From positions 1 through 34,317 of IMG/VR virus record IMGVR_UViG_3300023284_001620: a stretch of DNA of 34,317 nucleotides. The stretch is one strand, 5' to 3'. The DNA comes from a virus. Below, one piece after another: positions 5,120 through 33,982 of this stretch (position 1 is the first letter of the stretch; the number at the start of each line of letters is the position of its first letter). Below the pieces are notes generated by a model, which saw only the letters and a list, made by a program, of their open reading frames with translations, had not been told where the DNA came from and made no database searches. The translations under genes were made by a program, and so were the position numbers.

Positions 5120-5361
5120 AACTCGCTTTCATCCGTCGGTAGTCTTTAAAGAGAAGACTCGCTTATACACTACGGGTGTCTCGTCCATGTTGGCTCGCTA
5201 ATCGGATACAGGGGTCTTCCGCATCTAGGCTCGCTTATTAATTGAGGGTGTCTCGGGGATATTGGCTCGCTTCAGACCTAAGGTTATCTTTCCTCTTGAG
5301 GCTCGCTTAACCGTAACGGATGTCTCCCCTTCATTGGCTCTTTATTTTGAAATTTGTCTCC
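5120..5361 (-). repeat. Short TIGR-type array (array 2), about 6-7 units
   Basis: On the plus strand the octamer GGCTCGCT (first copies AACTCGCT and GACTCGCT) recurs at 5120, 5156, 5192, 5228, 5264, 5300 and, degenerate, 5336: an exact 36-bp period. Half-way through each period lies the second repeat (GGTGTCT, GGTTATCT, GATGTCT variants). The two spacers per unit are 9-10 nt and differ from unit to unit. This is the same layout and the same repeat sequences as the large array at 19.4-20.5 kb, so it should use the same TasA-like protein. The last degenerate unit runs into the final codons of polA. Strand given as minus to match the flanking transcription; transcript direction is not proven. 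Confidence 0.85.
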
Positions 5362-8095
5362 AGTTACTTCCCGTTCGGCGGTCAATTTCAAACAGCAGGA
5401 AGTTTTTCACTTCCCTCTTAAATACTTCCAGTCCCAACTTTTCGACTTCGCTCACCAGTTCGTTCCGCACTATCAAAATCAGCTCGTCGTGCATTTGCAG
5501 TCCGATTCTCACGTCTTCAAAATCCCATTGCCGTCGAATAGCTTTCCACATTCTTACCTGCTGAATTTTAAATATCTCTGCCGCGGTTCCAGCATTATGA
5601 TGGTGCCACGCTGTTTTTGTTAGTTCGTGCAGTCGTCCTCCCCTTGCAGTTTTCAGTTCGGGCATTTCCCTCGTTCGACCAAAGTAAGTTGCTGTTGATC
5701 CTGATCGTTGGGCGTGCTTTATGTAGTTCTCCATATATTGGACTGCGACGGGTGCTCGACTCTTCCAAGCATTAATCAGTTTCGTCGCTTCGTCTGAGGC
5801 TATTCCTAATTTCTTCCCCAGGGTAAACGGTTGCATCATGTAAAGGATGGCAAAATTGATTGTTTTCCCCGACTTCCGATCGTCTGGTTCGTGTAAATCT
5901 ACATTTGGTACCGCTTCCTTCACCTCATTCCACATTTGTAGGTGAAAATCCTGGTCACTTTCAAACGCAGCGACCAGTGTCGGATCTTTTGACAGGCTCG
6001 CAAACACCACATATTCCGCCTGTCCCTGGTCAAACGACACCAACTTAAATCCATCCGGGGGTTCAATCGTCTCTCTTATTTCTACGATTCGATTCTGCAG
6101 GTTGGGTTTTTCGCAGGCGTAACGACCATGTGGTGTTCCTAGTTGGAGCCAGTTGCACTGTACTTCCCCTGCTTTCGCAAATGGTTCCCATTTCGTTAGT
6201 TGCGACACTTTTGATTGGGCTTCTCTTGCTTCTATCACCGTTCCGGCCAGCTTGTCTCCCATCGAGTGCAGCGCCTGCAGAGTTTCCTTGTCACAGGATG
6301 GCAGACCTGATTTCTTGTTCACTCTCTGAACTGGTAAGTCTCGTTCCTCGAAGAATATTCTCGCACAGTCAGCTGGTGAATTCGGTCTAAATGCCTGGTC
6401 GTTTGCCTCTGCCTTCGCTTCCCCGGTTAATCTTTCCAGTTCTTTGGTCGCAGTAGCCAGGTTCCCCGCCCAAGTTTGTTTATTTACTCTAAGTGGGGTT
6501 CGATTCATTTCTTCCGTCACCGGCTCGAGCTGGCGCTCTACTTTCAGGCTGTTTGAACCGAGCGGTAGGAAAACATCGAATTTAGGTATGCGGATCTCGT
6601 TCATCTCCTCTATTATACCATCCTGGTCAGAAATGTCAAGTCCTAAGATGTCTCTTTCCTTCTCCAAGGTTCGTATTCCGGAAACATCTGAGACCGTCCG
6701 CATTGATCCGTCGTTTCTCCTCACCCTCACTGAGAAGTCGTCCACTCGTTTAATTTCCCCCGCCCGCCAAAGTCCCTTCAGATCTCTAATTTCCACCAGC
6801 TGTCCAACCTGGTACACCGTCCGAAAAAAGGTCTCCTGTACAAACTCCTCTCCCGGATCTTCCTTCCCCTTTTGGGCTTCATGGTAGATCTTTGTCAAGT
6901 CCAAGTCCTCCAGAGAAATCTCTACCTGGTCTATCTCTCGTAAATTAGTGAATTGCAGGACTGCAGCAAAAAACTGGTTTCTCCGGTCCTCCCATTTCTC
7001 TTCCACCCGTACCTTCAGTTCTCTTGCTAGTTCCGCTACATTTTCCGCCCTCAACCATCGCGAATCTTTTCTTACAGCCCGCTCTGCCGCTACAATTTCT
7101 ACTCCTTTTAGTCTCTGTTCGTTGTAGAGTTTGATCCAGACTTTCGCCCTGTCCCCATCCTTTTGGAGAGCCTTTTCAACCACTTCTCTCTCTTCTTCGC
7201 TTTTTTGTCCCAATTGCAGTAGTAGGAAGTCGGGTAGTGTAAATTCTCTCGCAATTTCTGCGATCGGCTCAAGGTAGGATGGTAGTCTATAAGCATGTTC
7301 CCTCGTTATCAGTCTGCCTTCAGTTTCAATTTCCAGTATGTCTTCAGTCCTTTCTACTCTCATCGCGGGTGAATCTGTCTCCCGCGGCTTAATCGTCAGT
7401 ATTTCCAGCGCCGGCACGAACGCTAGGATTGCTGCAAATACCGTCGCTCCTCCTTCTACTATTGTGTATTCTTTTATTCCTGGATGCCTTACTGCCCTAA
7501 CTGTTTCTTTCTTTTCTCCCCTTAATACCGCTCTTAGTTGGCCTGCATCTAGGTCTGGTAGTACCAGTACCGCAAATAGTGGTACGGTCTCTTCTTTCCA
7601 GCTTTTATCTGAGATACTCTCCATCCCATCCCTTGGGTATTTTGCTCTTGCGTCGTCCAATCGTATTCTTCCTCCCTGAAAGGGAAGGAGCGTTAGCAGT
7701 CTTGTTATCGTCTCTTCTGCGAAGTGTCTCCCTGGTAGAGTTGGTGCCCCAAACTCCTCCCTCCTACTTAGATCCCTTAGTCGTTGGTTCCATTGGTCCT
7801 CCCTCTTATCGTTTAGTGTTTTTCTCAGTGCTCCGCTCTCCCCACTTTGGAATAGGAATACGGGCTCCGCTAGTGGGTTATCCTCGTTTGATTCCACTGC
7901 TTGCCCGTTTCCTGGTGCGTTTGTTCCTGCAATTGCGTCTTCCTCCCCTGGTTCTCCCGTATCATTCATCACCTCCAGAGCAATAAGCTCCATTCCGACT
8001 CCAAGGAGTCGGTTAAATTCTTCTGTGGCGGTTGCCTCGAATTCGTTTAGTATTTGAAAGGGAAGTCGCGATCTCGGAACACGCTGTCTCGGCAT
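5342..8095 (-). CDS. DNA polymerase, family A
   Basis: The 917-residue protein ends in a clear family A polymerase domain (about residues 600-917). It has GRYACEKPNLQN before motif A; motif A as VSFDQGQAEYVVF, with the catalytic Asp and conserved Gln and Glu of the usual DYSQIEL; motif B as DRKSGKTINFAILYM, with R, K and an aromatic finger residue; and motif C as GLQMHDELILIV, with the HDE catalytic residues. No proofreading-exonuclease motif was recognised in the long N-terminal part, which is divergent. It would replicate phage DNA. Placement between portal and head morphogenesis genes is unusual. AGGA lies upstream of the ATG. Array 2 begins at its stop codon. Confidence 0.93.
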   Translation of the reverse strand: MPRQRVPRSRLPFQILNEFEATATEEFNRLLGVGMELIALEVMNDTGEPGEEDAIAGTNAPGNGQAVESNEDNPLAEPVFLFQSGESGALRKTLNDKREDQWNQRLRDLSRREEFGAPTLPGRHFAEETITRLLTLLPFQGGRIRLDDARAKYPRDGMESISDKSWKEETVPLFAVLVLPDLDAGQLRAVLRGEKKETVRAVRHPGIKEYTIVEGGATVFAAILAFVPALEILTIKPRETDSPAMRVERTEDILEIETEGRLITREHAYRLPSYLEPIAEIAREFTLPDFLLLQLGQKSEEEREVVEKALQKDGDRAKVWIKLYNEQRLKGVEIVAAERAVRKDSRWLRAENVAELARELKVRVEEKWEDRRNQFFAAVLQFTNLREIDQVEISLEDLDLTKIYHEAQKGKEDPGEEFVQETFFRTVYQVGQLVEIRDLKGLWRAGEIKRVDDFSVRVRRNDGSMRTVSDVSGIRTLEKERDILGLDISDQDGIIEEMNEIRIPKFDVFLPLGSNSLKVERQLEPVTEEMNRTPLRVNKQTWAGNLATATKELERLTGEAKAEANDQAFRPNSPADCARIFFEERDLPVQRVNKKSGLPSCDKETLQALHSMGDKLAGTVIEAREAQSKVSQLTKWEPFAKAGEVQCNWLQLGTPHGRYACEKPNLQNRIVEIRETIEPPDGFKLVSFDQGQAEYVVFASLSKDPTLVAAFESDQDFHLQMWNEVKEAVPNVDLHEPDDRKSGKTINFAILYMMQPFTLGKKLGIASDEATKLINAWKSRAPVAVQYMENYIKHAQRSGSTATYFGRTREMPELKTARGGRLHELTKTAWHHHNAGTAAEIFKIQQVRMWKAIRRQWDFEDVRIGLQMHDELILIVRNELVSEVEKLGLEVFKREVKNFLLFEIDRRTGSNWRQISK

Positions 8096-19323: not shown

Positions 19324-19351
19324 GATAATACCGCCTTTCAGCGGTATTATC
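19324..19351 (-). terminator. Strong hairpin at the downstream end of TIGR array 1
   Basis: GATAATACCGC pairs perfectly with GCGGTATTATC (11 bp, 6-base loop). It lies between the array and the AAA+ gene. There is no U-run, so it may be a processing or stabilising hairpin for the array transcript rather than a true terminator. Confidence 0.5.
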
Positions 19352-19365
19352 CATCTTCCTGTTAA

Positions 19366-20530
19366 GTACGCTTGCCATCTTCGGTTGTCTTACTACACAA
19401 GGCTCGCTCGCCTTCGTCGGGTATCTTTCTACGCATGGCTCGCTTTTTGTTGTCGGGTGACTAGCAGATTGAGGCTCACTTGCGATCGTCTGGTGTCTGT
19501 TATGGATAGACTCGCTTTTATCGTAGGGTGTATACCAAAAGAGGCTCGCTCTGACCTGAGGTTATCTTACTTCTTAGGCTCGCTATTAACTCTAGATTGT
19601 CTTGTGACGGTCGGCTCGCTATTAACTCTAGATTGTCTTGTGACGGTCGGCTCGCTTCTGAACCCAGGTTGTCTAATGAGCTACGGCTCGCTTCTAGATT
19701 TCGGATGTCTTCATCGCTTTGGCTCGCTTGTGAGGTTGTCTTGGAGCACAAGGCTCGCTTCCTGTCAACGGGTGTCTAATAGCGCTCGGCTCGCTTAGGA
19801 GAACAGGGTATCTTGGTGCGTCTAGGCTCGCTTGAATTCTTCGGTTGGAGAGACTCGCTCTGCATCGAAGATTATTTTACAAAGTAAGGCTCGCTCTGAC
19901 CTGAGGTTATCTTGCATCATTAGACTCGCTTTTTATCGTAGGGTGACTACACCGTAACGGCTCGCTTGCGTCGACGGGTGTCTTCATCGTTTTGGCTCGC
20001 TTGCTGTCTTGGGATGTATTAATCGTTTTGGCTCGCTCGGGGCGTTCGGTTGTCTTAGAATGATAGACTCGCTTGTCAACAAAGGGTGTCTCCCCATTTA
20101 AGGCTCGCTTCTTGTCAACGGATGTCTTGTAACGCTCGGCTCGCTCAGTGGGAAAAGTTGTCTTCCCATTTTAGGCTCGCTCGTAGGTCTTGGTTGTCTC
20201 ATTCATGATGGCTCGCTCGGGAAAAAGGTTGTCTTCAATCACAGGCTCGCTTGCGTCGACGGGTGTCTAAAACTGGCGGCTCGCTTATCGTTCAAGGGTG
20301 CCTTTTGACGTGAGACTTGCTGTTAACCATAGGTTGTCTCGTGGACTAAGGCTCGCTTTTAACCATAGGATGGCTTATATCGTTCGGCTCGCTTCAAGTG
20401 CACGGGTGTCTTACGTATTTAGGCTCGCTTATCGGTCGAGGATATCTTTTCCTTATTGGCACTCTTCTCCCTTTCGGGTGTATCTCACTTTTTTGGCTCG
20501 CTTCACTTGTGGGGTTGACTTTTAGTCCTC
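19366..20530 (-). repeat. Large TIGR-type array (array 1), about 33 units of 36 bp
   Basis: On the plus strand GGCTCGCT (or a 1-2 base variant) starts at 19401, 19437, 19473, 19509, 19543, 19577, 19613 and so on to 20495: 32 clear copies plus a degenerate one at 19366, mostly 36 bp apart (a few 34, 35 or 37; single short units of 31 and 27). Between successive copies lies a second conserved octamer, GGTTGTCT/GGGTGTCT. Each unit is therefore repeat 1, spacer A (about 9-10), repeat 2, spacer B (about 9-10), and the spacers vary. This is the described design of TIGR arrays, which give ~36-nt dual-guide tigRNAs for Tas proteins, and not CRISPR. Strand is set to match the TasA-like gene; transcript direction is unproven. 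Confidence 0.88.
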
Positions 20531-20547
20531 GACTAGTATCCATTCAA
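20519..20547 (-). promoter_or_regulatory. Weak candidate promoter at the head of array 1
   Basis: On the minus strand TTGAAT, 17 bases, TAAAAG: 4 of 6 matches at each hexamer. It lies right where the array begins, and the T-run after the tRNA-like RNA overlaps it. It may be chance. Confidence 0.22.
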
Positions 20548-20551
20548 AAAA

Positions 20552-20748
20552 TGGCGGGCGTGGCAGGGGTCGAACCTGCTTCGGCGACGGTACGGTTGCT
20601 CCCGTCGCTCTGCATGGGTTGGAGCGGCAACGCCCGACCCCCACACTGTCGTCCCGGCCCAGAGGTCGTCTCGTTCCAGTAAGCAGTCATCAGGTTGCCC
20701 TCTGCTGTAACCAAAACGCCGTTTCTCTATCCAGTACGCCCATAATTT
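20552..20748 (-). ncRNA. Structured RNA with tRNA-like 3' domain (copy 1)
   Basis: It begins straight after the TasA-like stop with AAATTATGGGCG. The last 84 bases (20552-20635) fold like a tRNA: an acceptor helix pairing GGGCGT with ACGCCC (plus one terminal mismatch), a T arm GCAGG-TTCGACC-CCTGC with canonical loop, an anticodon-position stem GCGACGG/CCGTCGC, and a 3' GCCA followed by six T. The anticodon-position loop is 11 bases (GAGCAACCGTA) rather than 7, so it is not a normal tRNA. A second copy at 33010-33208 has the same layout, the same loop and covarying stems. Function unknown; its place between the TasA-like gene and its array is suggestive. Confidence 0.6.
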
Positions 20749-21660
20749 CTATGCTGCTCGTTCCTCCCTGTGCACGATTTCCAGTTTTGCTTCCGCGTAT
20801 GTCGGCATGACCATCAAGTTTTCCATCGGCCGCCACTGGTTATACAGGTCGCAAAGGAACATCTTCATCATGTACCGAATTGCTTGCCGGTGGCGCCGTG
20901 CTTTTGACGCCCGCCTTTCCACTTCGGTGTACTTTCCGTCGTTTTTCTTTCCCCACGTCGCGTGGTTTTCCATCCGGAGCTTGTAATCGTCGTAGTACTT
21001 CCGGTATCGTTCGTTCCCCGATCGGAGGAATGATACCCCAAGCACCCCAAGCAGTTTCGTCCGCAGAAACGGGTTGTACGTGATCGCCTTCTTGGTTTTC
21101 TGCGTCCCGTCTGCCGCTGTGTACTCTCGGTCTACCAGGTGTTCCTTCCGCTTCGACCGGCCCATGCCGTCGTCAGCCACATCCAGCCCTGCGTAAGCCC
21201 ATAGGGACGACGGGTATCGTGCTTTGTGAATGTCAAACTCTGACAATATTACCGCCGCCATTGTCGGCCCGATCCCTTTCACATCCTTCAGCCAGTTGTC
21301 CCAGATCGGAATTCCCGCCAGTTCCTGCTCCAGCGAACCGAAGTGGGTATCCTCGATTTCGTGCAGCGACCGGTATTGCCGGATCAACGTTAGTTCCGTC
21401 ATTGACGATATCAATCGCATTCCTTTGAATGGCGTCGTCCCCGATTTCTTGATCATCGCGTCCGTCACCTGTTCAAATTCCTTCGTAATTTCGTCCAGAA
21501 TTGACTTCGCTTCCGCGTCCGTCATTTCTTCTTGGGTTTGGTTTGGTTGCTGCCCCACCTTGGCCCGAAAATTCATTGCCAGTCGGTTGCCGACGGCAAT
21601 CCGCAGGCTTTGAATATCATAGGTTCCCCGAACCAGTGCCCGTAAATTTTCTTTCCTCAT
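20749..21660 (-). CDS. tasA: TasA-like protein (nuclease-less TIGR-associated, Nop/IS110 C-terminal-like)
   Basis: Read from the ATG at 21660 (AGGAG eight bases upstream; the longer reading to 21780 is unsupported) the protein has 303 residues. Its core IWDNWLKDVKGIGPTMAAVI with SEFDIHKARYPSSLWAYAGL is the helix-hairpin-helix and following segment of the IS110/IS116 transposase C-terminal domain, which is related to the Nop domain of box C/D snoRNP proteins. The usual N-terminal DEDD/RuvC domain of IS110 is absent and there is no HNH or RuvC. The C-terminus is basic and rich in Tyr and Arg (RRASKARRHRQAIRYMMKM), fit for RNA binding. With the array beside it this matches TasA, the nuclease-free member of the TIGR-Tas family, which binds tigRNA and would target DNA without cutting it. 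Confidence 0.8.
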   Translation of the reverse strand: MRKENLRALVRGTYDIQSLRIAVGNRLAMNFRAKVGQQPNQTQEEMTDAEAKSILDEITKEFEQVTDAMIKKSGTTPFKGMRLISSMTELTLIRQYRSLHEIEDTHFGSLEQELAGIPIWDNWLKDVKGIGPTMAAVILSEFDIHKARYPSSLWAYAGLDVADDGMGRSKRKEHLVDREYTAADGTQKTKKAITYNPFLRTKLLGVLGVSFLRSGNERYRKYYDDYKLRMENHATWGKKNDGKYTEVERRASKARRHRQAIRYMMKMFLCDLYNQWRPMENLMVMPTYAEAKLEIVHREERAA

Positions 21661-21683
21661 CTTGGGTTCTCCTAAAAGGGTTG

Positions 21684-21702
21684 GGGGAGCTCTCCGCTCC
21701 CC
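21684..21702 (-). terminator. Hairpin between HTH gene and TasA-like gene
   Basis: GGGGAGC pairs with GCTCCCC across a five-base loop, 24 bases before the TasA-like ATG. On the minus strand CAACCCTTTT follows. It may be an attenuator lowering TasA-like expression, or a partial terminator of the HTH gene. Confidence 0.45.
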
Positions 21703-21719
21703 TCTTTTATACCCCGATT

Positions 21720-22451
21720 TCAGGTTTTTCTCCCGTACTTCTTTCGGTCTTCGATCTTTGCCGCCTTTTCCTTCGCCCACGTCATGACGTTAAATCGACG
21801 GTAAAAGACCTCCCGTCCAAAAATTCTATGCGGTGGCATGTCACCCTTCTTCCTCCACGCGTGCAGCGTCGACGGGGCGAGTCCAACCAGTTTCGCCGTT
21901 TCCTGGTTCGAGATATACGCCTTACCCGGTCGGATTGTAGAATGAACTCCCATAGGAGACTTTCCTATCTCCGTTCGAGGATGGTCGGGTTGTTTGTGCA
22001 TCAGATTACGCACTTTATCGACCTTCACACGTGTTTGCTTAGCCAAGGGCACCTTCTTCGGCAGCTTTGGCAGTTTGGTCTTAAACGCCATTCTTTTCCA
22101 CGCCCGCACTTCCGCCTCAGCATAGACATATCGTCGACCGTTGTATTCTGATTTCGGACCTAGTCCGTCGGATCGCATCTTCGCCAGGGTTGAGTGGCCA
22201 ATACCAAGGAATTTTGCTGCGTCCCTCGTCCCCCAAAAATGCCCTTTTCCTGCGGATCGTTTTACTTTCTTTGGGGGTTTCATGTCCACCCCTGCTCCAT
22301 TCCGTAGGAAACCCACGAAATCGGTGCACAATTGTATCGCCTCGGGCGCCGTCAGTACCACCAACGGACCCACCGGTCCTGATTGGGTCAAAAACTTTAG
22401 CGCCTCCTCGTTCAGGACGTTTCTCTGTTCGTTCGTCAAGGGTTCCGTCAT
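21720..22451 (-). CDS. DNA-binding protein with two excisionase/MerR-like HTH domains
   Basis: 243 residues with two similar winged-HTH units: FWGTRDAAKFLGIGHSTLAK (about residue 90), followed by a wing with YNGRRYVYAEAEVRAW, and YISNQETAKLVGLAPSTLHA (about residue 180), followed by IFGREVFYRRFNVMTW. Each resembles the HTH_17 / excisionase type. A basic Lys/Pro linker joins them. It sits directly upstream of the TasA-like gene, with an AGGAG site, and may be co-transcribed. It could regulate the locus or be a phage recombination directionality-type factor; there is no integrase in the window to support the latter. Confidence 0.6.
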   Translation of the reverse strand: MTEPLTNEQRNVLNEEALKFLTQSGPVGPLVVLTAPEAIQLCTDFVGFLRNGAGVDMKPPKKVKRSAGKGHFWGTRDAAKFLGIGHSTLAKMRSDGLGPKSEYNGRRYVYAEAEVRAWKRMAFKTKLPKLPKKVPLAKQTRVKVDKVRNLMHKQPDHPRTEIGKSPMGVHSTIRPGKAYISNQETAKLVGLAPSTLHAWRKKGDMPPHRIFGREVFYRRFNVMTWAKEKAAKIEDRKKYGRKT

Positions 22452-26392: not shown

Positions 26393-26583
26393 AAGATTTC
26401 ATTGATCTTTTCCCAAATACGATCGCGTTCCTGCGACGCCATCACACCACCAAGAGACAAGGCAGCTTCGGCGTCCTTTTGTGTCGAAAACATCGGTCGA
26501 ACTACGCCGTGAGTTTCAATATCAATATACCACTGGTGGTCGCTAAAACAGGCAGTATCTCTTTTTATTTCGTAGGTTCCCAT
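26389..26583 (-). CDS. Small protein of the repeated promoter cassette
   Basis: 64 residues from the ATG at 26583, preceded by AGGAAA; the apparent ATG 18 bases upstream belongs to the leader. It starts MGTYEIKRDTACFSDHQWYI, and its first codons resemble those of the 30669-31022 gene (MGTYEQKID). C-terminal helix. Its promoter region is a near copy of that at 31.3 kb. Function unknown. Confidence 0.55.
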   Translation of the reverse strand: MGTYEIKRDTACFSDHQWYIDIETHGVVRPMFSTQKDAEAALSLGGVMASQERDRIWEKINEIF

Positions 26584-26614
26584 TTTCCTAGTCCCTTCCA
26601 TTCCTTGTATACTA

Positions 26615-26642
26615 TATATAAGAACTTTTACCGCCTTGTCAA
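26615..26642 (-). promoter_or_regulatory. Promoter of repeated module (copy A)
   Basis: Minus strand TTGACA, 16 bases, TATATA. The leader and flanks are nearly identical to those at 31251-31279, which has a 17-base spacer. It drives the 26389-26583 gene. Confidence 0.8.
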
Positions 26643-26653
26643 CCTTTTAATCC

Positions 26654-26693
26654 ATGCACTCCGTGCAGAACTGGTATGCTCTCGGTGCAGAAC
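26654..26693. promoter_or_regulatory. Direct-repeat operator upstream of promoter copy A
   Basis: Two copies of an 18-base motif, ATGCWCTCSGTGCAGAAC, 22 bases apart (two helical turns), just upstream of the -35 box. The nearer copy contains the perfect palindrome TGCAC-TCC-GTGCA. Likely a site for a dimeric regulator; the identical pair recurs at 31291-31330. Confidence 0.65.
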
Positions 26694-26742
26694 CTACGCT
26701 TTCACTCATCGGGTGTCTTAGTTGCATCGGCATTTGGAAATG

Positions 26743-28018: not shown

Positions 28019-28053
28019 TTTTCCGTTCCTTAACTAGTGGTTTCTTATGTCCT

Positions 28054-28082
28054 ATTATACCATATTCCACTAGTATAGTCAA
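28054..28082 (-). promoter_or_regulatory. Consensus early promoter (module C)
   Basis: Minus strand TTGACT, 17 bases, TATAAT. Drives the 27578 gene and SprT. Shares a fixed upstream element with the promoters at 30.2 and 31.9 kb. Confidence 0.9.
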
Positions 28083-28091
28083 CTAGTCTCT

Positions 28092-28153
28092 CCTAGTGAC
28101 TTCCACCTTCATCTTCCTGGATTGTGTTATTTCCTCTATGGTAGTTTGGGAAC
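28092..28153. promoter_or_regulatory. Conserved upstream element of promoter module C
   Basis: Minus strand TGGAAGTCACTRGG nine bases before the -35, and GTTCCCAAA about 40 bases further upstream. The same two boxes at the same distances occur at 30239-30301 and 31931-31993. Confidence 0.65.
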
Positions 28154-30173: not shown

Positions 30174-30200
30174 TTGGGTTTCCTTTCTCATCATGTCACT

Positions 30201-30229
30201 ATTATAACATGTTTCCCTAGTAATGTCAA
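30201..30229 (-). promoter_or_regulatory. Consensus early promoter (module B)
   Basis: Minus strand TTGACA, 17 bases, TATAAT: perfect. Drives genes 30173 downward. Confidence 0.92.
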
Positions 30230-30238
30230 CAATCCTAT

Positions 30239-30301
30239 CCCAGTGACTTCCACTAACGTTTTCAGGGTCTCTTCCCCTGACAGGATTGCACATTTGGGAA
30301 C
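30239..30301. promoter_or_regulatory. Conserved upstream element of promoter module B
   Basis: TGGAAGTCACTGGG starts nine bases before the -35 and GTTCCCAAA lies about 40 bases beyond, as in modules A and C. A small CAGGG/CCCTG hairpin lies between them in this copy only. Confidence 0.65.
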
Positions 30302-30379: not shown

Positions 30380-30471
30380 TAGGAGGAGTTAAATCCCTCG
30401 ACTACATGATCCATCGCTTGCAAACGAACCCCCAACCGCTTGGGGCTTCCCACTCCCATAATTTCATACCG

Positions 30472-30654
30472 TCAGTTGTCTTTCACCTCTCCATCAACGG
30501 AAGACATTTCAGTCTCTACTGGAGGCTTCCTCCTCTCCACCATCAACCGTTTGTCTCGCCGCACGTTTTCCGCCTCTAAATCTGTCATCCAGGCAAAATA
30601 CCATTCACCCCGTTCCCACTTGGATTTCACCAAGTAGTATTTCTTTTCTTCCAT
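30472..30654 (-). CDS. Hypothetical small basic protein
   Basis: 60 residues, starts MEEKKYYLVKSKWERGEWYF, then a basic helix (NVRRDKRLMVERRKPP) and an acidic end. AAGGAACGGAAA precedes the ATG. Function unknown. Confidence 0.5.
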   Translation of the reverse strand: MEEKKYYLVKSKWERGEWYFAWMTDLEAENVRRDKRLMVERRKPPVETEMSSVDGEVKDN

Positions 30655-31026: not shown

Positions 31027-31218
31027 CTATTCCTCTTCGTCCGTATCATAGCGAAGTCCGGCGTCGCCCGACAACTCGTCGGTATCGTCTTCTAAAAAGA
31101 ACTTAGTTCCACCACACTTGGGGCATTTATCAAAAGTGTCCGTCCCCTCATTGTGAACAAATTCATCAGCTTCACCCTGCCAATGACATTTAAGAGTTTC
31201 ACAATAGTAGGTTTTCAT
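31027..31218 (-). CDS. Small zinc-ribbon protein
   Basis: From the ATG at 31218 (AGGAAA leader identical to that of the 26.6-kb gene), 63 residues: two Cys pairs (YYCETLKCHWQG and DKCPKCGGTKFF) with an acidic tail rich in Asp and Glu (TDELSGDAGLRYDTDEEE). A zinc-ribbon fold is likely. Early, first gene of its cassette. Target unknown. Confidence 0.6.
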   Translation of the reverse strand: MKTYYCETLKCHWQGEADEFVHNEGTDTFDKCPKCGGTKFFLEDDTDELSGDAGLRYDTDEEE

Positions 31219-31250
31219 TTTCCTAGTCCCTTCCATTCCTTGATATACTA

Positions 31251-31279
31251 TATATAAGCACTTTTTGCCGCCGTGTCAA
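31251..31279 (-). promoter_or_regulatory. Promoter of repeated module (copy B)
   Basis: Minus strand TTGACA, 17 bases, TATATA. The leader, spacer and upstream repeats match copy A at 26615-26642 almost base for base. Confidence 0.8.
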
Positions 31280-31290
31280 CCTTTTAATCC

Positions 31291-31330
31291 ATGCACTCCG
31301 TGCAGAACTGGTATGCTCTCGGTGCAGAAC
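31291..31330. promoter_or_regulatory. Direct-repeat operator upstream of promoter copy B
   Basis: The same two 18-base motifs, 22 bases apart, as at 26654-26693, ending at the stop codon of the upstream gene. Confidence 0.65.
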
Positions 31331-31540
31331 CTACTCGGTCAAATCATCTCCGCTATATTTGCTGTAGGATTTATCGTGGTCTCCCGTAGCAAAAACTACC
31401 AAATCCCCATCCGCAATCTCTCTGCGAGACCGTTTGTCATGAACCCGGTGGATGAAATCAGGCAGACCGAAGGCCCGGACAGCAGCCATGTACCGCTCAT
31501 CCCGAAATCCTACAAAGTGTGTTGCTCTTGTTCCTAGCAT
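31331..31540 (-). CDS. Hypothetical protein, 69 residues
   Basis: Alpha/beta with RDERYMAAVRAFGLPDFIHR, DGDLVVFATGDHD and a polar end. Possibly DNA-associated; no family is recognised. GGGAAC lies before the ATG. Confidence 0.5.
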   Translation of the reverse strand: MLGTRATHFVGFRDERYMAAVRAFGLPDFIHRVHDKRSRREIADGDLVVFATGDHDKSYSKYSGDDLTE

Positions 31541-31866: not shown

Positions 31867-31892
31867 TTGGCTTTCTCCGTTCTGATGTACTA

Positions 31893-31921
31893 ATTATAGC
31901 ACTTTCTGTCGAAAAAGTCAA
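31893..31921 (-). promoter_or_regulatory. Consensus early promoter (module A)
   Basis: Minus strand TTGACT, 17 bases, TATAAT. Drives the 31555-31866 gene. Confidence 0.9.
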
Positions 31922-31930
31922 GTATCTTCT

Positions 31931-31993
31931 CCTAGTGACTTCCATCAACGTTATTAGCTGCAACCTCTAAGCGTATTTCATAGTTTTGGGAAC
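31931..31993. promoter_or_regulatory. Conserved upstream element of promoter module A
   Basis: TGGAAGTCACTAGG nine bases before the -35, then GTTCCCAAA about 40 bases upstream, next to the stop of the 31993-32982 gene. Same geometry as modules B and C. Confidence 0.65.
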
Positions 31994-32982
31994 TATCTCG
32001 TCACCTCGTACCTCTTATCCACCCATCCGAGGGACGCATCTCCCTTCACATGGTCGTTCTTCCACCATCGCTTGGCTCCACAGTCCCAATCGCACTCGTA
32101 GCGATGTTCGTCCACCTGTCTCCATCTGTGCACACAGCCTCGTCCAATCTTCCGACTTTGGCACCAATGGCCTCGTACTTCGTGTGCTCGTCGTCGCTCC
32201 CCTATAATCGCCTTCGCTAGCTTCCGGATTTCGATCGTATGTTCCAACTTCAGGCGTACCACGTGGTGCGCTGGATACACTATATTTCTCCGGTCTCTCA
32301 ATCGATGGACCTTAGGTCGATGGTCCAAATGAACAGCATTTCCTGGTCGGGTCAACATTATCAGTAGGGTTAGCGCCAGTTTCATTTCTCCTGCCGAGCC
32401 CTCCAGTATCTCCCGTCGCATTTTATGGGGTATTTCGTCGAACCCTCCCAGTATAATTGCGTGGTTCTTTGCCGCCATTATTACTTCCTGACTCTGCGCT
32501 TCATTTTGTACCCGTACCGCCCCTAATTGCATTACGATTGCCTCGTCGTAAGACATTCCCAAAAATTCTTCTATTTCCTCTTCTTCTTTTCTAGATAGTC
32601 TCCGGTGTAGCTCGAACCCTAGCGGACCGATCGCACCTTCCCCTTCTCTTGCCGCTCCAGGCCAAATACGGTTCTTGTGGTAGAGGTATCCCACTACCTC
32701 ATCTCCCTCCACCCAAGTTTTATTCCCTGTCAGATTTTGCCAGTATTCCCTGTGGTTCAGTTCTATCCAGGTCGTCTCGAAGGGATTCCGCGCGAACTCT
32801 CCGTTAATTACGATGTCCGCTGCGGCCGATCGCAGTAGGTTCCCTAAAAAGGCAGAGGCATCGTCGTCCAGCACAAATATGCGCGCCTCGTCTAGCAGTC
32901 TTGTCGGGGGCTGTTCCCAATACACGTCCATTGGATTCTCTCGAATCGTATGGAGTAGCTTGGGTTCTGCCTTTTCAGTCAT
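31993..32982 (-). CDS. Hypothetical protein with C-terminal zinc-finger-like region
   Basis: 329 residues. N-terminal two-thirds is alpha/beta with DDDASAFLGNLLRSAAADIV. The last ~80 residues are rich in Cys, His, Trp and Arg: HEVRGHWCQSRKIGRGCVHR, then YECDWDCGAKRWWKNDH and KGDASLGWV. This Cys/His pattern with 'rWW..HvrGd..lGwv' recurs in phage orphans. No catalytic motif recognised. It could be a DNA- or RNA-handling factor. A weak GGTGG precedes the ATG. Confidence 0.6.
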   Translation of the reverse strand: MTEKAEPKLLHTIRENPMDVYWEQPPTRLLDEARIFVLDDDASAFLGNLLRSAAADIVINGEFARNPFETTWIELNHREYWQNLTGNKTWVEGDEVVGYLYHKNRIWPGAAREGEGAIGPLGFELHRRLSRKEEEEIEEFLGMSYDEAIVMQLGAVRVQNEAQSQEVIMAAKNHAIILGGFDEIPHKMRREILEGSAGEMKLALTLLIMLTRPGNAVHLDHRPKVHRLRDRRNIVYPAHHVVRLKLEHTIEIRKLAKAIIGERRRAHEVRGHWCQSRKIGRGCVHRWRQVDEHRYECDWDCGAKRWWKNDHVKGDASLGWVDKRYEVTR

Positions 32983-33009
32983 TTGCCACCGTTAGTGCCC
33001 ATTTAAAAT

Positions 33010-33208
33010 TGGCGGACGTGGTGGGGGTTGCACCCACTTCTGCATTGGTACGGTTGCTCCCAATGCTCTACGTAAAGTGTGGTGGTAACACCCGGCTTCA
33101 CGTTATCATCCCGGCTAGAGATCGTCCCGCCTCAGTAGGCTGGCGCGGTTACCCGCCGCGTAACCAAAACGCCGTTTCTCTTTCCAGTACGCCCATAATT
33201 TCATACCG
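33010..33208 (-). ncRNA. Structured RNA with tRNA-like 3' domain (copy 2)
   Basis: It follows the RNase H stop (TGACGGTATGAAATTATGGGCG). The terminal 84 bases (33010-33093), the same length as copy 1, form an acceptor-like helix GGGTGT with ACGTCC (one GU and one GT swap), a T arm GTGGG-TGCAACC-CCCAC, a stem GCATTGG/CCAATGC with the same 11-base loop GAGCAACCGTA, and 3' GCCA. Stem bases differ from copy 1 but pairing is kept, so selection on structure is clear. Function unknown. Confidence 0.62.
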
Positions 33209-33943
33209 TCACCCGTCTGCAATCTCCATTCCCTGTGGATTTTCTAGGATACCCATATAGGTATCCCGGTCGATTGTCTTGGCAATGTATTCTCGGATTT
33301 CTGTCATCCGGCCTGTACTCATCGTCGAGAGCATCGGCTGCATCGAGTCCTCCGGTTTAAAAGTGAAGGTCTTGTCAGTTTTCGTCACCTGTCCGATCAG
33401 AGTTCCTCCAATTCTGACTCGATATTTCCCCTTCCCGACGCTTGCTATCTTCAGTGCTTTTGGCCAAGCCATTCCCGCTGTTCCTTCTTCCTGTTCCCTC
33501 ATTCTCTTTCGTGCTTCTTCGTCGCACCACTTGTTCACCCAATCCCTTGATTTCGCCGGCCGTTGGTGCGCTTTAACGTGTGCCGTTTTTAGTCGCACGT
33601 TCCTTTCTCTCAGCCGCTTCTTTACTGTTAATACCACCTTCTCGACGAAGGGGGTATTTATTTGACCCCCTGTCAGCTTATCAATAGCATGCATCGAGTC
33701 CGACACGATGTGTATTGTCTTCGCTTGTCCGAACAGGTTCAGTGCGCTTAGAATACCGATCCCACAGGCAGCTAGTTCCGCCTCGCCTGCATTATCTGGC
33801 TGGTTCTTAAAGTGTCCGGATCGTCGTCGTGTCGAGCCCTGGTGCTTAATCCAGGCTGCCCAACCAGCTGCTCCGGTTTCTTGGTGAAATGAGGCGTCCG
33901 TAAATACCGTTACGTATCCAATCCACTTCTGGTCATCTGTCAT
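33209..33943 (-). CDS. Ribonuclease HI with C-terminal extension
   Basis: 244 residues from the ATG at 33943 (AGGGAAG upstream). RNase HI catalytic residues can be placed: VTVFTDASFHQETGAAGWAA (first Asp), DNAGEAELAACGIG (Glu), IHIVSDSMHAIDKL (Asp), the HVKAHQ His loop, and WVNKWCDEEARKR (last Asp). The usual bacterial RNase HI is about 155 residues; here the C-terminal ~90 residues add a beta-rich domain (KYRVRIGGTLIGQVTKTDKT). It cuts RNA in RNA-DNA hybrids, useful with phage PolA. Confidence 0.9.
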   Translation of the reverse strand: MTDDQKWIGYVTVFTDASFHQETGAAGWAAWIKHQGSTRRRSGHFKNQPDNAGEAELAACGIGILSALNLFGQAKTIHIVSDSMHAIDKLTGGQINTPFVEKVVLTVKKRLRERNVRLKTAHVKAHQRPAKSRDWVNKWCDEEARKRMREQEEGTAGMAWPKALKIASVGKGKYRVRIGGTLIGQVTKTDKTFTFKPEDSMQPMLSTMSTGRMTEIREYIAKTIDRDTYMGILENPQGMEIADG

Positions 33944-33953
33944 CTTCTTCCCT

Positions 33954-33982
33954 AAGAAAAACACCCGGGCGGAGCCGGGTTG
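33954..33982 (-). terminator. Rho-independent terminator
   Basis: On the minus strand ACCCGG pairs with CCGGGT over a six-base loop and is followed by GTTTTTCTT. It ends the transcript of the small gene at 33984-34139, just before RNase H. Confidence 0.75.

Follow-up and report, generated by a model that had tools for sequence, protein, structure and literature searches.

Two copies of an intergenic element

The window analysed here, a viral record of 34,317 bases, has its main genes on the minus strand and carries two copies of one structured element, numbered 1 and 2 along it (Table 1). At both sites the element fills the intergenic gap. Copy 2 starts 6 nt past the stop codon that closes an RNase H-like gene, the neighbour already named in a first-pass annotation of this DNA, and its end lies 22 nt from the start codon of a 329-aa gene with no match in Pfam or PHROG. 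The first base of copy 1 is also the final base of the stop codon in a gene for a TasA-like protein, and copy 1 ends about 20 nt before a TIGR guide array. The two copies are 98% identical over a 43-nt stretch at the 5′ end, and 71% identical over the 3′ 90 nt.

The first-pass annotation had described two tRNA-like RNAs of equal, 84-base length with an identical 11-nt loop. Both observations hold, at 20635–20552 and 33093–33010 on the minus strand, with the loop reading GAGCAACCGUA on the RNA strand in each. However, the 84-nt stretch is only the 3′ part of the element; the 5′ part (33202–33110 in copy 2) belongs to the same RNA and includes the 43 nt that are nearly identical between the copies.

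Other repeats were seen in the window. The 19 nt TGACGGTATGAAATTATGG, which run across the stop codon into the start of copy 2, are found identically at 30474–30456 and 33211–33193 (minus strand). A candidate third copy at 30465–30311 was rejected, as its fold had a z-score of -0.01 over 150 nt and a covariance model built from the two copies found no match there, despite the 19 nt identical to copy 2. An intergenic block is duplicated at 26572–26704 and 31207–31341 (approximately 94% identical); read on the minus strand, it has paired TTCTGCAC motifs as well as a promoter that resembles TTGACA/TATATA. Three further related blocks (28052–28106, 30199–30253 and 31891–31945) resemble sigma-70 promoters on the same strand.

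Table 1. Features of the two loci and of the predicted RNA
Feature	Position	Strand	Evidence
TIGR guide array, 36-nt period, downstream of copy 1	19384..20525	-	repeat detection
Copy 1, whole element	20547..20749	-	covariance-model match, 248 bits
Copy 1, predicted mature RNA (190 nt)	20552..20741	-	structure and covariance model
Copy 1 T-arm, GCAGG-UUCGACC-CCUGC, canonical tRNA T-loop	20563..20579	-	sequence
TasA-like Nop-domain protein (TIGR-Tas), upstream of copy 1	20749..21780	-	phmmer TasH 21kl 5.2e-8, 9mty 1e-7; Pfam Transposase_20 3.6e-6
329-aa gene, downstream of copy 2	31993..32982	-	start codon 22 nt past element
Copy 2, whole structured element including A/T-rich outer helix P1a	33005..33202	-	covariance-model match, 215 bits
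Copy 2, predicted mature RNA (185 nt)	33010..33194	-	G1 = 33194, CCA end = 33010; ends placed by aligning real tRNA genes with the model
Copy 2 P5 = T-arm, GUGGG-UGCAACC-CCCAC	33021..33037	-	two two-sided compensatory changes
Copy 2 P4 hairpin, 7 bp, loop GAGCAACCGUA the same in both copies	33042..33066	-	three two-sided compensatory changes
Copy 2 P3 hairpin	33070..33103	-	two-sided compensatory changes, two outer and one inner; one inner pair broken
Copy 2 P2 domain: CUGG/CCGG, AGAG/CUCU, CGUUUUGGU/ACUGAGGCG, GNRA-type loop GUAA	33111..33187	-	9-bp helix with three one-sided changes, all wobble-compatible
Copy 2 P1 5′ strand UGGGCGU (acceptor 5′ strand)	33189..33195	-	pairs with 33013–33019 ACGUCCG; pairing probability 0.89–1.0 for six pairs
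RNase H-like gene, upstream of copy 2	33209..33964	-	Pfam RNase_H 1.1e-9; PHROG 531 3.3e-18

Structure of the element and its ends

A comparative fold of the two copies with RNAalifold, performed unprompted, produced helix P1, the P2 domain, the P3 hairpin, P4 with the 11-nt loop and the P5 T-arm. Its energy was -66.75, compared with -43.9 ± 4.7 in 300 column shuffles that preserve the conservation pattern (z about -4.8), and none of the 300 reached it. The outer helix P1a and details of P2 were added to this fold by hand. In the resulting structure 97.5% of cells were paired, against 36–50% when the 3′ partners were slid by 1–3 columns, and eight two-sided changes were found (three in P4, two in the T-arm, two in P3a and one in P3b), against none or one in the slid controls. 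A further eight changes were one-sided and kept the pair, three of them in P2c, where the 5′ strand is invariant. Overall, 16 changed pairs were kept and 3 broken, compared with means of 6.1 kept and 20.8 broken when substitutions were placed at random in the paired columns (0/20000). The controls for the hand-made structure are somewhat too favourable because it was drawn partly on these same sequences, a bias from which the unprompted fold is free. We are highly confident that the element is a structured RNA under selection, and both the shuffled alignments and the excess of kept over broken pairs give good support to the claim that RNA structure is selected in intergenic regions of the phage.

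Several elements of the earlier description survive in this structure. The stem GCGACGG/CCGUCGC of copy 1 reads GCAUUGG/CCAAUGC in copy 2, so that the pairing of P4 persists through its two-sided changes, and the T-arm covaries as had been reported. At the tip of P2 a GNRA-type tetraloop is present in each copy, as GCAA or GUAA. By eye, ACGG in the internal loop of P2 may contact CCGU in the P4 loop over 4 bp; both motifs are invariant.

The acceptor had to be redrawn. A cloverleaf of 84 nt with an internal acceptor strand (GGGCGUU/GGGUGUU) had been proposed, and covariation claimed for it; as drawn, it shows only one-sided wobbles (C-G to U-G, G-C to G-U) and a conserved U.C mismatch. On the alignment the pairing probability of the internal acceptor was 0.0, and the isolated 84-nt stretch of copy 2 did not form it in its own fold. 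The internal strand falls instead in the P3 hairpin, supported there by one two-sided change (C-G to U-A). In the RNAalifold structure of both copies, 5′ GGGCGU pairs with 3′ ACGYCC to form P1. Forcing either acceptor led to the same comparative fold and hence did not discriminate between them, so the choice of the 5′ partner is decided by the pairing probabilities. In this closing version too, pairing is kept through one-sided wobble changes, without covariation, and A7.C66, at the acceptor base, is mismatched in both copies.

The 3′ end of each copy consists of a T-arm, seven nucleotides of acceptor strand, a G and CCA. This arrangement (T-arm, 7 nt, any base, CCA) was found in the window only at the two copies, with 0.11 occurrences expected in shuffled windows. 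P4 is separated from the T-arm by 4 nt, as in a short tRNA variable region, and the T-loop of copy 2 has G where tRNA has U55. Thus the description of the RNA as tRNA-like stands for the ends, where acceptor stem, T-arm and encoded CCA are all present in register. It does not stand for the remainder: neither copy has a D-arm or a 7-nt anticodon loop, and the unit is approximately 185–190 nt long rather than 84.

The covariance model supplied the strongest independent test of the ends. Searched against 1,570 prokaryote genomes, belonging to the phyla that include G050, G051, G053 and G054, it found six matches at E≤0.01, all to tRNA or tmRNA genes. These scored 20.9–28 bits, covering the acceptor/T-arm part only, compared with 215–248 bits for the two copies, and are not relatives of the element. 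In four of the six (L310, L312, L314 and L315) both ends of the tRNA gene called by ARAGORN lay exactly on model positions 9 and 198, the positions of the predicted G1 and of the A of CCA. Only the 3′ end coincided in L311, a tmRNA, and in L313, a tRNA-Cys, the 5′ strand of the model fell upstream of the gene. A model blind to tRNA therefore places tRNA ends at the predicted mature ends, and a tRNA-type end in the register given above is, in our judgement, probable.

Protein coding was weighed as a source of the similarity between the copies. A frame in copy 2 (MKLWAYW...) resembles one in copy 1, and the 19 nt around its start are those that recur at 30474–30456, as might be seen if a small coding sequence had been duplicated or had decayed and the structure were incidental. 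However, no frame runs intact through both copies, all being broken by indels of 1–2 nt; the start codon is missing from copy 1, and the compensatory changes track base pairs and not codons. We regard this explanation as very improbable.

Relatives and the TIGR-Tas locus

No relative of the element was found by blastn among 50,697 phage records and 72,556 plasmids, where the best matches reached E 0.7 and included the 3′ ends of tRNA genes. One of these similarities, approximately 85% over 34 nt between the 3′ end of copy 1 and the 3′ ends of phage tRNA-Asn genes (E 0.7), might be taken for the relic of an attachment site, with a host tRNA gene's 3′ end retained in the phage attP. Yet there is no integrase among the proteins tested, and the element occurs as two diverged copies with compensatory changes in helices foreign to any tRNA, which makes such an origin highly unlikely.

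Searches of viral contigs with patterns for the 11-nt loop and for two 5′ stretches also gave no relative. Loop matches, from viral contigs and genome contigs alike, were checked for an accompanying stem; among the matches listed, a few had a chance stem and none of these a T-arm. The covariance model found nothing in the 5′-stretch matches, from which L222–L226 were excluded. For terminase and RNase H, the viral contigs yielded no relatives. On the sequences searched, in which no copy beyond the two was seen, whether keeping or losing the pairings, the element appears, provisionally, to be rare.

The genes beside copy 1 have the features by which TIGR-Tas systems are defined, a Nop-domain Tas protein and a 36-nt dual-repeat array (PMC12045711). 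Eighty relatives of the TasA-like protein were kept from viral contigs, and most of them adjoin arrays with a period of 34–38 nt. The model found no true match in these 80 Tas loci, the single hit (12.6 bits) being the tmRNA of L291, nor in 48 Tas-bearing records, where three hits at about 12 bits fell on tRNA-Tyr genes (L307 and L309) and on the same L291 tmRNA (L308). The element cannot be a general part of TIGR loci, since these are generally without it and copy 2 is without an array. Where an array lies downstream, it usually starts 0–30 nt past tas, measured to the first periodic match of a simple detector (exceptions were L287, at 140 nt, and L247, L251 and L302, with sparse matches), compared with 251 nt in the window. 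The most fitting account of copy 1 is therefore that it was inserted, or arose by duplication, where tas meets the array, and as far as seen it appears to be lineage-specific.

Several further observations concern TIGR-like sequences and RNA genes near tas. In the window, a second, short TIGR array at 5120–5325 (minus strand) immediately follows the gene for DNA polymerase A and is distant from tas, and a lone TIGR-like piece, AAGACACCCGATGAGTGAAAGCG, is found at about 26697–26720 (minus strand) just upstream of a promoter-like stretch. After the main array a hairpin was noted by eye at about 19325–19352. The Tas-bearing viral contig L291 contains a tRNA-Glu and a predicted phage tmRNA (tag AENQLPIAA) at 5348–5779, approximately 400 nt after tas, and in L229 and L230 a tRNA-Glu (5339–5413) is found shortly past the TIGR array downstream of tas.

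No promoter was detected on scanning the stretch from the upstream gene to the element in either case; for copy 2, the weak matches on the minus strand fall inside the RNase H gene or ahead of it. Intrinsic-terminator scans gave no match at either element. With no terminator at the elements and no promoter between, co-transcription with the upstream gene is the simplest assumption. Building on it, we infer that tRNA enzymes may cut the RNA out of polycistronic transcripts and that punctuation may be its main role, a reading that we tentatively prefer while giving it slightly less than an even chance. The minus-strand transcript would run from the upstream gene through a phage non-coding RNA of approximately 185–190 nt, whose tRNA-type end closes a body of three further helical domains, into the downstream gene or TIGR array. 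Host tRNA enzymes would recognise the acceptor and T-arm, which are predicted to offer RNase P a substrate of 7+5 stacked positions with one mismatch and a GCCA end. RNase P would cut before G1, at 20741 in copy 1 and 33194 in copy 2, and 3′ maturation would stop at CCA, at 20552 and 33010, respectively. Excision would thereby release a stable RNA and part the upstream mRNA from the unit that follows, tas mRNA from pre-tigRNA at copy 1 and RNase H mRNA from that of the next gene at copy 2.

A structure that acts in cis, left unexcised in the 3′-UTR or between cistrons, where it protects or regulates the flanking mRNAs, would also fit the placing of the element, which leaves 0–6 nt behind the preceding stop codon and about 20–22 nt ahead of the next start codon or array; a ribosome stopped there would presumably cover the start of P1. 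It would leave the tRNA-register acceptor, T-arm and CCA unexplained, and neither element matches an intrinsic terminator. The downstream units differ in kind, a protein gene and a guide array, so there is no shared regulated gene. We consider it quite unlikely.

Against excision it can be noted that the comparison covers two sequences from one genome, that the acceptor has its A7.C66 mismatch and the copy 2 T-loop its G for U55, and that other TIGR-Tas loci manage without the RNA. Moreover, the body is large and conserved in part beyond what a cleavage signal needs, so punctuation alone is insufficient, and the sequence of the body suggests a function beyond it. Alternatively, the 43-nt identity may have come from recent recombination between the copies, a distinction that two sequences cannot make. 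A phage RNA working in trans, for which excision is only the route of synthesis, is possible, if somewhat unlikely. Its tRNA-like end might serve in tmRNA-like work on ribosomes, as a decoy for host or defence proteins that bind tRNA, or to display the 11-nt loop. The excess conservation of the body, including a P4 loop left identical on a changed stem and the kept tetraloop, is consistent with such a role, as are the retention of two copies beside unrelated genes and the weak matches of the model to tmRNA as well as tRNA. However, the copies have no tag frame in common, neither matches the Rfam tmRNA model even at E≤10, and any target or partner is hypothetical.

Under the preferred reading, excision by tRNA enzymes, copy 1 could be a processing module of the TIGR-Tas operon. 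Host tRNA enzymes would free the guide precursor from tas mRNA by way of an accessory RNA recruited from a phage-specific tRNA-like family, whose other copy would act likewise between ordinary genes. We think this unlikely. The authors who described TIGR-Tas left tigRNA maturation unexplained, suspected that a conserved RNase of the host is involved and detected no accessory RNA (PMC12045711), and the copy 1 locus offers one concrete test case. If the preferred reading is correct, the phage has made a compact RNA with tmRNA-like ends and no detectable tag, set inside operons that include the junction of a Tas gene and its guide array. The compensatory changes in copy 2 fix a structure model that is open to direct probing.

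Comparison with known RNAs

The element is a tRNA-ended non-coding RNA. ARAGORN made no call on either copy, and there was no match in Rfam at gathering scores. At E≤10, copy 1 matched tRNA-Sec with 17.3 bits, far below the cut-off of 47, copy 2 matched a 15-nt piece of the Tymovirus tRNA-like element with 10.5 bits, and neither matched tmRNA (RF00023). No tmRNA-type tag frame with a resume codon is common to both copies, all frames being broken by the small indels. Lacking these calls, a D-arm, a 7-nt anticodon loop and a shared tag frame, the element is neither a tRNA nor a tmRNA, yet it has their end.

With tRNA it shares an acceptor with six of seven pairs, a 5-bp T-stem, a 7-nt T-loop, a 4-nt variable region, G73 and CCA, all in exact register. 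It differs in the missing D-arm, in the 7-bp hairpin with an 11-nt loop at the anticodon position and in two extra domains, and is passed over by ARAGORN. As in tmRNA, acceptor, T-arm and CCA are closed by the two ends of a longer RNA and the 5′ strand runs directly into a long helix. However, the element is approximately 190 nt long against approximately 350 nt (the ARAGORN length of the L291 tmRNA), carries two additional hairpins in the stretch from the long helix to the T-arm, and is set apart by the missing Rfam match and tag frame.

RNase P is known to process pre-tmRNA and also phage RNAs that are not tRNAs, for example M3 RNA and the C4 antisense RNA of P1 and P7 (PMC11143913). These resemble the proposed case as non-tRNA phage RNAs matured by the host enzyme (PMC11143913); the likeness is one of maturation, which for the element is predicted, and we claim no relation in sequence. 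Plants have dicistronic tRNA-snoRNA genes, as far as these are described where they are cited in PMC12045711. The setting of copy 1 differs from theirs in belonging to a phage, in using a structured tRNA-like RNA whose processing is putative and in preceding the guide array of a DNA-targeting Tas protein, but in both a tRNA-type element lies directly 5′ of the guide RNA of a Nop-domain protein.
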